Origin: Zeaxanthinibacter sp. PT1
GTDB lineage: Bacteria > Bacteroidota > Bacteroidia > Flavobacteriales > Flavobacteriaceae
NCBI RefSeq assembly: GCF_028464225.1
Contig: NZ_JAQPCN010000001.1
Span: 1 to 64,000, forward strand
Direction: 5' to 3'
DNA: 64,000 nt
This document shows positions 1 through 7,145 of this stretch, one piece after another. How positions within the stretch are numbered: position 1 is the first letter of the stretch; each line of letters opens with the position of its first letter. A program made the position numbers and the translations under genes. Under the pieces are notes generated by a model that worked only from the letters and a program-made list of their open reading frames with translations, was not told the origin of the DNA and searched no databases.

Positions 1-795
1 GGAGGTGCCTCTCAAGATGTGGATCTAGTTTCTCTTTTAGGTACTGATGATCAAAACGCCGATGAAGTACCTTACGATCCAACCATATCAGGGCTTACTG
101 CAACAGATACGCAGGCGGCTATTGATGAGATCGTTACTAATGGGGTTTCGGGTCACACAGGTATTGAAGGCTCTATTTTTTTTGCAGACAATGTTTCGGG
201 TAATCCAACTGAAGATAACTCCAATTTTTTCTGGGATGATAATTTAGACCGGTTGGGAATAGGCTTAAACACGCCTTCAGCATCCCTTCATGTTGGTGGT
301 GAAACTAGATCGACAAAATATACAGCCCTGGGTGGTAGTGCAGGTTTACCTAGCTACAGTTTCTCAGATGATACCGATTCTGACACTGGAATGTTTCTAC
401 CAGTTATGAATCAAATTGGCTTTACAACAGGAGGTAGCGAGAAAGTTAGAATTAATTCAGTAGGTGATGTCGGTGTTGGGACAATAGATCCCAGTTCGAC
501 ATTAGATGTCGATGGATCAGTAGCAGCTGGTGCACGAACAGCAAGTGGCACTATTAATATAGGGAAATCTGATTTCACAATTTTGATAACCGCTAATAAC
601 ACTACTCTAAATCTGCCTGATCCTTTATTTGTGCCTGGAAGAATTTATATTATCAAAAACCCAGATGCTACATTTACCAATGTTACTATCGATACCTATA
701 AAAATAATACAAATACAGATACCACAACAATCAATGCAGGTAGCACAGTCTGGCTACAAGCAATTGGAGGTGAATGGCACCAAATAAATAATTAA
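1..795 (+). CDS. Stalk/tail-fibre-like surface protein, 5' end outside window
   Basis: The frame is open from base 1 to the stop at 793-795, so the N-terminus lies outside the window; the internal GTG at 19 is not a credible start. The visible 264 residues are rich in Asp, Thr, Asn and Ser. They carry two copies of a 'GIG-NTPSASLHV / GVGTIDPSSTLDV' type motif (near 256-300 and 472-516), common in long repetitive Bacteroidota surface and tail-fibre-like proteins. The last 75 residues (GRIYIIKNP ... WLQAIGGEWHQINN) match in pattern the C-terminus of the collagen-like protein at 2113-5991, so the two share a terminal domain. The next gene starts directly at the stop codon, implying coupled translation. 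The DNA is much more AT-rich than the following gene. The role is unknown; surface attachment is a guess. Confidence 0.75.
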   Translation, partial: GGASQDVDLVSLLGTDDQNADEVPYDPTISGLTATDTQAAIDEIVTNGVSGHTGIEGSIFFADNVSGNPTEDNSNFFWDDNLDRLGIGLNTPSASLHVGGETRSTKYTALGGSAGLPSYSFSDDTDSDTGMFLPVMNQIGFTTGGSEKVRINSVGDVGVGTIDPSSTLDVDGSVAAGARTASGTINIGKSDFTILITANNTTLNLPDPLFVPGRIYIIKNPDATFTNVTIDTYKNNTNTDTTTINAGSTVWLQAIGGEWHQINN

Positions 796-1944
796 GTGAA
801 ATATTGTATTTTAAATGTTATTCTATTGCTGGGTTGTTTCTCGATATCAGCCCAAACCGCCCTCTACAACAGCGGTAACATCCGCATTCACGAAGGGGGC
901 ATCATCGGTTTCCATACCGACCTGATCAACGACGGCAGTTTTGACGAGAACCGAGGATTGGCGGGCTTTTACGGCACTACGCCCCTCACCCTCTCCGGGG
1001 CCTTTATGCCCTTCTTTTTCGATACGGAATGGGCTAATGATTCGGGCGTAGACCTGGAGACCCCCGTAAGCGTTATCAATAATGCGAATTTCATTACAGG
1101 CGATGTGCGCACCCCCAGGAATATGCGCGATATCTTCCTGAATTTTATGCAGGATGGCTTTTATAACGGGGAGACCGATTTTACCAAAGTAGATGGCTAT
1201 GCGGCCGTCACCGGCCAGGCCAGTTTTATATTCCCGGTAGGTACCTCTCAGCAGCTGCGGCCACTGACGCTTAACTCGGACAGCCCCAACACCCTGGCCC
1301 GTTGTGCCTATTTTGCCGAAAATCCCAACAACCCCTCTACCTTCCCTCCTTTTAATACCGAGATCCGCGCCCAGACCATCAGCGGGATCAGCCAGGTGGA
1401 ATTCTGGCGATTGGAAGGTACTGTGCCATCGACCATCACCCTCAGCTGGAATCCCTCCAGCGGGATCGCGGCCCTGGCCCCGGAACTGGAAATGCTCACC
1501 ATCATGGGCTGGAGCAAACAGGCCAGGCGATGGGTTTCCCTGGGTCATACCGTGGTTTCTGGAGACCTGGAGAACGGTTTTATTTCCTCGGCGAGTTTTG
1601 TACCGGACGAGTACGAGATCATTACTTTTGGCAGCCTGGCCGAACCCTCAGATATTTTGGCATTACCCAATTATATCCTGACCCCGAACAATGACGGTAT
1701 AAACGATTTTCTACAGATCGACGAGCTGGAACAGAGCCCGGATAACAGTCTTTCTCTCTTTGACCGGAATGGATTATTGGTTTTTAAAGCGGCGCCTTAC
1801 CTGAACAATTTCAACGGCTTTTCTAACGTGGATAACCTGGTTATCAACAGGGAACAAGGATTACCGGAGGGCATCTATTATTACGTCCTGGAAATGTTTG
1901 ACCTGGGCCTGCAATACCAGGGATTCCTATACCTTGAGAGGTAG
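796..1944 (+). CDS. Secreted protein with CHU_C-like (gliding/T9SS) C-terminal domain
   Basis: A 382-residue protein starting at GTG with no gap after the previous stop. Residues 1-20 are a signal peptide ending SISAQ. The middle is a beta-rich region beginning 'NSGNIRIHEGG'. The last 95 residues (NYILTPNNDGINDFL ... GIYYYVLEM ... GFLYLER) fit the gliding motility-associated C-terminal (CHU_C, type B sorting) family, which in Bacteroidota marks cargo of the type IX secretion system. It is a clear paralogue of the protein at 5991-7145 over its whole length. Each paralogue directly follows a stalk-like gene, so the two products probably act together at the cell surface. That partnership is inferred from position only. 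Confidence 0.8.
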   Translation: MKYCILNVILLLGCFSISAQTALYNSGNIRIHEGGIIGFHTDLINDGSFDENRGLAGFYGTTPLTLSGAFMPFFFDTEWANDSGVDLETPVSVINNANFITGDVRTPRNMRDIFLNFMQDGFYNGETDFTKVDGYAAVTGQASFIFPVGTSQQLRPLTLNSDSPNTLARCAYFAENPNNPSTFPPFNTEIRAQTISGISQVEFWRLEGTVPSTITLSWNPSSGIAALAPELEMLTIMGWSKQARRWVSLGHTVVSGDLENGFISSASFVPDEYEIITFGSLAEPSDILALPNYILTPNNDGINDFLQIDELEQSPDNSLSLFDRNGLLVFKAAPYLNNFNGFSNVDNLVINREQGLPEGIYYYVLEMFDLGLQYQGFLYLER

Positions 1945-5991: not shown

Positions 5992-7145
5992 TGAAAACAG
6001 TAATTTTTTCATTACTATTTTATCTACCCCTTATCCTGTTGGGGCAGACCAAGGTGCGCAACAGCGGGAACCTGAAAGTTTTCGATGGCGGGAAGCTGGG
6101 ACTGCATACAGACCTGGTCAACGATGTATCTTTTGACCAGAATAACGGGCTGGTGGGCCTATACGGCGAACAATCGCTGCAGATCACCGGGGCCACGGCT
6201 CCTGTATTCTACGACCTCGAGATCGCAAATACCCATGGCATCTTGCTAGACCTGCCTGTGGGGGTGCGGAATAACGCCAACTTCATCGAGGGGGATTTTA
6301 TCGCTTCACGGAAACACACCCTGGTATACGTCAATTTCCTTCGATCCTCTTTTTACGTGGGCGAATCCGATTTTTCTAAAGTCTCCGGCTATGCCTACGC
6401 CAATAATACCAAGTCGTTTACCTTCCCGGTTGGAGATGATTATCGTTTACGGATTTTAAGCATCGATGCAGATACAGAAGCTGAGTTACTCAAATGCGCT
6501 TATTTTTTCGAAGATCCCAACGCCTCCAAAACCCTGGACCTCAGCTTTAACACCTCTAAAAAACTGAACACCCACCTGGAAATCAGCGATAAGGAATTCT
6601 GGCGCCTGGAAGCGGAAAGCCCCATGAGGGTCACCCTCAGCTGGGACACCAAAAGCAACATAGGCAGGCTTGCCGAGTACGTGACAGATCTAAAAGTGGT
6701 TGGTTGGAATAAGCAGCAACAAAAATGGGAAGACCTTGGCAACACCTATGTCAATGGCGGCTTGGAATACGGATCGGTCCGCTCCCGGCCAATTATACCT
6801 GATGATTACGAAGTACTCACTTTAGGGGGTAATTCTGAAATCCTGAATACCTATGATACTGTAGAACTGGATAACTATTACCTGACCCCTAATGCCGATG
6901 GTAAAAATGACCGCCTGAAGATTGAGGGAGTAGAAAATGCACCTAACAATCACATACAGATCTTTGACCGTTACGGGGTGATGGTGTATTCGAGGGATAA
7001 TTACCGGGACGAATTTGAGGGGTTCTCTAACCGGGAACAGGTGGTACAACGCAATAAAGGTTTAGAGCCCGGTATTTATTTCTACATTATCACCCTGCAC
7101 GATCTTCGAATGAAAAAACAGGGGTATATGTATCTCAACCGTTAA
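5991..7145 (+). CDS. Secreted protein with CHU_C-like C-terminal domain, paralogue of 796-1944
   Basis: A 384-residue protein whose ATG overlaps the stop of the collagen-like gene (TAATG), so translation is coupled. Residues 1-19 are a signal peptide ending LGQ. It aligns by eye from end to end with the 796-1944 protein: 'NSGNLKVFDGG', 'LHTDLVND', 'FDLNNG'-like turns, 'EFWRLE', 'VTLSWD', then the CHU_C-like domain 'YYLTPNADGKNDRLKI ... GIYFYIITL ... GYMYLNR'. It is probably exported by the type IX system and may cap, anchor or assemble the collagen-like stalk encoded just before it. The last point is inference from the repeated gene order. Confidence 0.8.
   Translation: MKTVIFSLLFYLPLILLGQTKVRNSGNLKVFDGGKLGLHTDLVNDVSFDQNNGLVGLYGEQSLQITGATAPVFYDLEIANTHGILLDLPVGVRNNANFIEGDFIASRKHTLVYVNFLRSSFYVGESDFSKVSGYAYANNTKSFTFPVGDDYRLRILSIDADTEAELLKCAYFFEDPNASKTLDLSFNTSKKLNTHLEISDKEFWRLEAESPMRVTLSWDTKSNIGRLAEYVTDLKVVGWNKQQQKWEDLGNTYVNGGLEYGSVRSRPIIPDDYEVLTLGGNSEILNTYDTVELDNYYLTPNADGKNDRLKIEGVENAPNNHIQIFDRYGVMVYSRDNYRDEFEGFSNREQVVQRNKGLEPGIYFYIITLHDLRMKKQGYMYLNR

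Follow-up and report, generated by a model that had tools for sequence, protein, structure and literature searches.

The first 7145 nucleotides of a 64,000-nucleotide stretch of the genome of Zeaxanthinibacter sp. PT1 (the window; NCBI RefSeq contig NZ_JAQPCN010000001.1, positions 1 to 64,000) encode two tandem pairs of proteins, each composed of a long stalk-like protein (the stalk) and a secreted protein (the partner) that ends in a sorting domain for the type IX secretion system (T9SS). This gene order, a fibre-like protein before a tagged partner, is conserved in many flavobacteria; it suggests that one protein carries the other and anchors it at the cell surface. Our reading of the sequences, which we hold with slightly better than even confidence, is that the stalk forms a trimeric fibre at the cell surface and that the type IX-secreted partner holds its base and probably exports it. 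The genome (3.34 Mb) is assembled in nine contigs, and the window starts at the first base of contig C1. The four genes are listed here, with signal peptides called by eye (as they are throughout) and clades taken from the partner tree described below.

1..795, + strand: stalk A, C-terminal 264 residues; open reading frame (ORF) open at its 5' end at the contig start; repeats, a tail-fibre-like region and a WLQ...W-H-IN tip; no sorting domain.
796..1944, + strand: partner A, 382 residues; signal peptide 796-849, N-domain 850-1653, CHU_C / type B sorting domain ~1663-1935; clade A.
2113..5991, + strand: stalk B, 1292 residues; signal peptide 2113-2172, conserved N-domain 2173-2388, collagen ~2480-5560, C-terminal tip match 5653-5982; no sorting domain.
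5991..7145, + strand: partner B, 384 residues; signal peptide, N-domain 6045-6836, CHU_C / type B sorting domain ~6867-7136; clade B.

A preliminary description, made from this DNA alone, had reported the two pairs, and what it observed is confirmed. The ORFs and junctions are as claimed: the stop codon of stalk A (793-795) is followed by GTG at 796, and stalk B and partner B overlap by one base in the TAATG at 5989-5993. The partners are indeed full-length paralogues (45% identity over 368 columns, E 4e-117) with the C-terminus ascribed to them, and both exceed the curated cut-offs for CHU_C (Pfam; 77.5 and 89 bits, cut-off 27) and for the T9SS type B sorting domain (NCBIfam TIGR04131; 38.2 and 47.6 bits, cut-off 35). 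Neither Pfam nor NCBIfam recognizes a sorting domain in the two window stalks, also as described, and the stalk middles are unlike: stalk B contains collagen (Pfam, 518.7 bits), and the last 220 residues of stalk A match phage tail-fibre PHROGs (best E 3.5e-13).

The start of stalk A probably lies on contig C8, where a 524-residue ORF (minus strand; L024:3-1574) runs off the contig end; it contains an apparent signal peptide and the first part of a stalk, with tandem repeats at its end. This ORF is 58% identical to residues 2-514 of an intact 699-residue stalk in the sister genome G160, a protein that the window fragment matches at 60% over residues 448-699; the G160 stalk is located directly before a partner with an N-domain 92% identical to that of partner A. 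Because no exact overlap was found between the C8 and C1 contig ends, the join is one that we infer. The genome encodes two strong stalk N-domains (on C8 and C1) and two partners.

Constancy of the gene pair

With the sorting domain removed, the N-domain of the partner is matched in 119 of 397 genomes of the family; we followed the 141 strongest partner matches, from 93 genomes (weaker matches are listed in part). A profile search over 395 genomes of the phylum gave a match in 44; among the matches listed, all 14 that exceed 300 bits belong to the same family, and those at or below 96 bits include proteins of ~410-450 residues in the genus g128 and domains of larger proteins elsewhere. The named carriers include Eudoraea, Maribacter, Arenibacter, Zobellia, Muriicola, Euzebyella and Cellulophaga (79 named loci kept of 258 confirmed).

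A same-strand ORF is found upstream of 139 of the 141 strong partners; one of these ORFs (in G225) looks unrelated, leaving 138 candidate stalks. The two partners with no upstream ORF are one that is 244 nucleotides from a contig end and one (in G143) that has a stalk N-domain gene after it. A majority of partners without an adjacent stalk would have spoken against the preliminary description; the opposite is found, that is, a candidate stalk directly upstream in 138/141. Measured from the end of the upstream ORF to the start of the mature partner (signal peptide included), the distance is at most 110 nucleotides in 123 of 139 cases, 111-300 in 12, and longer in 4. At 39/139 junctions the stalk stop codon leads straight into the partner frame with the reading frame unchanged, which is about the chance expectation (one third).

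As judged by profile, the stalks have in common an N-terminal domain that is far wider in occurrence than the WLQ...W-H-IN ending. The profile matches the upstream ORFs of 92 of the 141 partners; in 30 the ORF is cut before the N-domain, and 19 are unmatched (two with no upstream ORF, one unrelated, four with N gaps and twelve with other N-termini). The named loci give a similar account: all 79 have an upstream ORF, with the N-domain recognized in 48, cut by a contig end in 24 and unmatched in seven, six of which contain N gaps. In 24 partner genomes we found 41 stalk N-domains at or above 96 bits, 29 of them directly before a partner; for the other 12, at least one gene intervenes (four), the gene is split by gaps (two) or a contig break (one), the partner is just upstream instead (two), or no listed partner is near (three). 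No match reaches 96 bits in the 20 genomes with no listed partner, where the highest score is 85 bits; weaker relatives of a generic kind (21-57 bits) are common. As a separate observation, the N-domain in G373 (C1 2645068-2645277, minus strand) is located within a 5385-residue open frame before a partner, and a 2446-residue part of that frame is 95% Gly-X-Y by our own count.

The preliminary description had emphasized a shared C-terminus instead. Residues 154-263 of stalk A do match the end of stalk B at 38%; however, only 25 of 138 classified tips have the WLQ end, so we rejected it as the defining shared domain.

In ten distant loci, with partners of 408-448 residues, a stalk-like ORF is upstream in 10/10 and a gene resembling PorP/SprF is directly downstream in 8/10. 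For one of these (L280), Pfam confirms the order: a Peptidase_S74 stalk, the partner, PorP_SprF and OmpA/PD40; the other seven downstream genes were judged by a shared ending. Sorting domains of another type also occur: L286 (25.4 bits) and L294 (32.2 bits) exceed the type A cut-off of 23, so the type can change, and L287 falls just short of it (20.3 bits). In L294, stalk N-domain genes are downstream of the partner.

Other arrangements were also seen. In a different family, four ORFs with the partner domain alternate with stalk-type ORFs in a single array (L278, 1821-19901); three follow a stalk N-domain ORF identified by profile, the fourth follows a KIG-type ORF identified by eye, and no sorting domain was found in the two partner-domain ORFs tested. 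Contig C3 of the Zeaxanthinibacter genome (L025) encodes a 3511-residue stalk-like frame (2-9697), then a 667-residue CHU_C protein (9721-11724), then a PorP/SprF gene; this genome therefore also has a pair of another kind, with a CHU_C protein different from the partner. In L186, at the place of the clade B module, a 256-residue ORF (9249-10016) joins a stalk N-domain to part of a type B sorting domain. We did not count it as a natural fusion (NCBIfam 17.4 bits, cut-off 35, with the start of the domain missing); it is probably a deletion remnant.

Two clades and exchangeable tips

A midpoint split of a FastTree phylogeny of the 141 partners separates clade A (67 members, including 796-1944) from clade B (74, including 5991-7145). 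Both clades are present in 40 of the 93 genomes, and A precedes B in 26/26 linked pairs (24 genomes; on one strand and within 25 kb). Collagen occurs in 0/67 A stalks and 21/72 B stalks; these counts are lower bounds, because 16 A and 14 B stalks are truncated. The 'duplicated' module of the preliminary description is a pair of paralogous pairs, as stated, and an understatement: the duplication is ancient and gave two modules in fixed order. In at least 15 of the 74 B loci a short stalk lies between a longer stalk and the partner.

The picture of a conserved two-gene module with exchangeable shafts and tips is borne out in relatives. The complete upstream ORFs range from 108 to 2149 residues. 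The stalk ends form 15 single-linkage clusters (39, 36, 25, 16 and smaller), and these clusters, together with motifs that we wrote ourselves, define the tip classes. At E 0.001 in Pfam, the 136 stalk ends give no match to CHU_C or Por_Secre_tail; many of them match tail-fibre PHROGs (the commonest single family in 30/136), and two match BclA_C (Pfam), neither in the window. With these two matches in view, some tips are provisionally labelled C1q-like.

On the partner tree the 18 tip class labels require 64 changes, compared with a mean of 91.9 when they are shuffled; therefore, tip classes cluster yet change often. Among cross-genome pairs with partners at least 70% identical, the tip class differs in 22/54. 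When close clade A pairs have different tip classes and a measured N-domain, 8/8 retain 77-97% identity in the stalk N-domain, with tips at 11-19%. For example, G382 and G227 share 92% identity in the partner, 97% in the stalk N-domain and 19% in the tip, and the alignment of their stalks (58%) extends to residue 1122 of 1172 and residue 1136 of 1389. Similarly, Euzebyella marina (L203; an S74-like coiled-coil end) and E. saccharophila (L206; a WLQ end) share 85%, 79% and 15%, respectively. Free movement of tips between clades is not supported: WLQ tips separate by clade (the nearest neighbour belongs to the same clade in 23/25), and the exchange that is seen is within clades. Considered as a marker of the partner clade, the stalk N-domain has its nearest neighbour from another genome in the same clade for 53 of 63 KIG-type N-domains.

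The module is followed in the window by a gene resembling VanY-type D-Ala-D-Ala carboxypeptidases (7260-7991; Pfam VanY). A relative follows the module in 68 of the 136 loci with room for one (49/72 B, 19/64 A), and therefore the site is often conserved; the gene may simply mark the site or may act with the module. The region downstream (7260-8816) encodes the VanY-type and M48 peptidases, and a phosphoglycerate mutase-like neighbour is also present.

A candidate fibre on a T9SS-borne partner

The base stays constant, the outer end is exchanged, and the export tag is on the partner but not on the stalk; these features are most simply read as a fibre on a T9SS carrier and anchor. We propose that each pair encodes one surface fibre. 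The stalk would enter the periplasm by its signal peptide and then trimerize: its small N-terminal domain would form the base, collagen or a phage-tail-fibre-like region the shaft, and the C-terminus an exchangeable tip. The N-domain of the partner would hold the stalk, probably at the conserved N-terminal domain of the latter, and the complex would leave through the T9SS by means of the partner's sorting domain. The partner would then be kept at the outer membrane by a PorP/SprF-family protein, with the fibre base-down and its tip outward, presumably in an adhesive role; exchange of shaft or tip would alter reach and target and leave base and anchor unchanged. The interpretation offered in the preliminary description, an export-and-display system with an exchangeable stalk, is partly supported as a whole, and export and display of the stalk by the partner are plausible from the genes.

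The genome encodes SprA (2936 bits) and has 12 PorP/SprF matches. Binding of type B sorting-domain proteins to PorP-like proteins is described in PMC9143113, and in PMC10994853 a fusion lacking the sorting domain is the control in secretion assays of Flavobacterium johnsoniae. Full-length partner matches in it are limited to the two in the window; five others match the sorting domain alone. A model of partner A (pLDDT 87.9) includes a CHU_C part that resembles T9SS sorting domains (PorZ, Z 8.5, 85 residues aligned, root-mean-square deviation 2.7; for the NucA domain, a Foldseek probability of 0.98 but E 0.16). The N-domain of the partner has no clear fold match and no PDB sequence match at E 1. 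Residues ~90-265 of the model of partner A (796-1944) give rows for eukaryotic GAIN/ZU5-like folds (Z 6.0-7.9) that are too weak to claim, and no cleavage motif was noticed by eye in that region. The model of the stalk N-domain (pLDDT 76, predicted template modelling score 0.47) resembles trimerization folds (phage hyaluronidase, collagen XVIII/XV and Mtd) in mutually consistent rows, a likeness that fits a trimer base without proving one. Against PDB sequences this domain matches only antibody chains (E 0.42 or worse), and its likeness to DUF2793 is below cut-off.

Several observations weigh against this mechanism. No PorP/SprF gene is found beside the window pairs; among the other CHU_C matches in the genome, 8/13 have one adjacent. 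Orphan T9SS substrates in F. johnsoniae share one shuttle, as set out in PMC12618676, so an adjacent gene is not strictly required. The stalk N-domain gives weak fold matches (E above 0.07, Z no higher than 4.6), and the twelve upstream genes with other N-termini are outside its profile. Within clade B, an unlike N-terminus is frequent in the nearest stalk even where the partners are alike; for example, G182 and G355 share 86% identity in the partner and 27% in the N-domain, which also speaks against a simple docking rule. This mismatch is partly explained by the extra short stalks of clade B. Finally, the tips also co-segregate with the partner clade (as seen for WLQ), and therefore docking on the N-domain is not singled out; this co-segregation and the B loci with short second stalks weigh against taking the N-domain as the only link to the partner.

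Three further points count against the proposed fibre and complex in favour of an alternative in which the two proteins serve the same process without forming a complex: the partner would be a small T9SS adhesin in its own right, the stalk would cross the outer membrane by another route, and the pairing would reflect shared expression. The complex itself rests on inference. Operon-like spacing is common in the genome, in which 34/64 genes have a same-strand upstream neighbour within 70 nucleotides, so the closeness of stalk and partner alone is not remarkable; we place no weight on a binomial test (137/139 vs 34/64), the definitions in which were loosely matched. In addition, three strong stalk N-domain genes have no listed partner near them. 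However, the neighbour is specific, with one N-domain recognized by profile in 92/141; among the 44 genomes searched, N-domain matches at or above 96 bits are found only in partner genomes, and the pairing persists when the sorting domain is type A (L286, with L287 just under cut-off). We regard this alternative as rather unlikely.

The missing sorting domain of the stalks would also be expected if the stalk were a periplasmic spacer or scaffold and only the partner were exported. Collagen shafts of several hundred to >1000 residues and diverse, exchangeable ends are better suited to varied targets outside the cell, and stalk length varies widely (108-2149 residues in complete upstream ORFs, 5385 in the one long frame); we consider a periplasmic stalk improbable. 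That the stalks are tail fibres of a phage or phage-tail-like particle, with the partner incidental, would account for the tail-fibre PHROG matches (30/136 stalk ends in the commonest family) but not for the signal peptides, the T9SS partner or the VanY-type (68/136 loci), M48 peptidase and phosphoglycerate mutase-like neighbours, and we give it very little credence.

If the proposed fibre on a T9SS-exported partner is correct, proteins with no recognizable sorting domain can be T9SS cargo, and therefore secretomes listed by sorting domain alone miss partners. The pair would likewise offer a natural, modular platform for the display of long fibres, and many collagen-like and tail-fibre-like flavobacterial proteins would gain a testable role.

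Known systems for comparison

Full-text searching within one open-access library found no description of the stalk-partner pair, and no precedent for T9SS co-export in trans turned up in it; this co-export would be the new, and unproven, step. The closest T9SS systems are the type B substrates kept by PorP/SprF proteins (SprB-SprF, Fjoh_3952-3951-3950 and PG1035-PorP-PorE; passages of PMC12618676 and PMC9143113); in F. johnsoniae, Paillat et al. (PMC12618676) describe five operons that combine a type B substrate with a PorE homologue and an SprF-like protein. The partner is like these substrates in its type B sorting domain, and in 8/10 distant loci a PorP/SprF-like gene is downstream (with OmpA/PD40 also in L280). 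The difference is that the same passages of the two sources describe the substrate itself as the adhesin, whereas the module adds a separate upstream stalk with no sorting domain, and a PorP/SprF gene is missing beside the pairs of the window.

Phage tail fibres with exchangeable tips (S74 chaperone, Mtd-like) resemble the stalks in the PHROG matches, the Peptidase_S74 of the L280 stalk and the N-domain model; in contrast, the stalks are chromosomal, have signal peptides and are paired with a T9SS-tagged partner. Stalk B also passes the NCBIfam cut-offs of three models of Scl/Lcl collagen-like adhesins, through its collagen repeats; however, no LPXTG anchor was seen by eye in stalk B, its N- and C-terminal domains are different and its partner is a T9SS protein. 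The names of these models reflect repeat composition.

In the Bacillus exosporium, BclA is a collagen-like trimeric fibre with its N-terminal domain on a separate anchor, BxpB, and its C-terminal domain outward (in a passage of PMC10470788). That system differs in being on a spore surface with no T9SS, and the BclA_C / C1q-like end is absent from the window stalks. The likeness is in the proposed arrangement, a collagen fibre base-down on a separate anchor, which applies to the collagen shaft of stalk B, not to stalk A; by analogy, BclA on BxpB is the nearest working counterpart of the proposed fibre.

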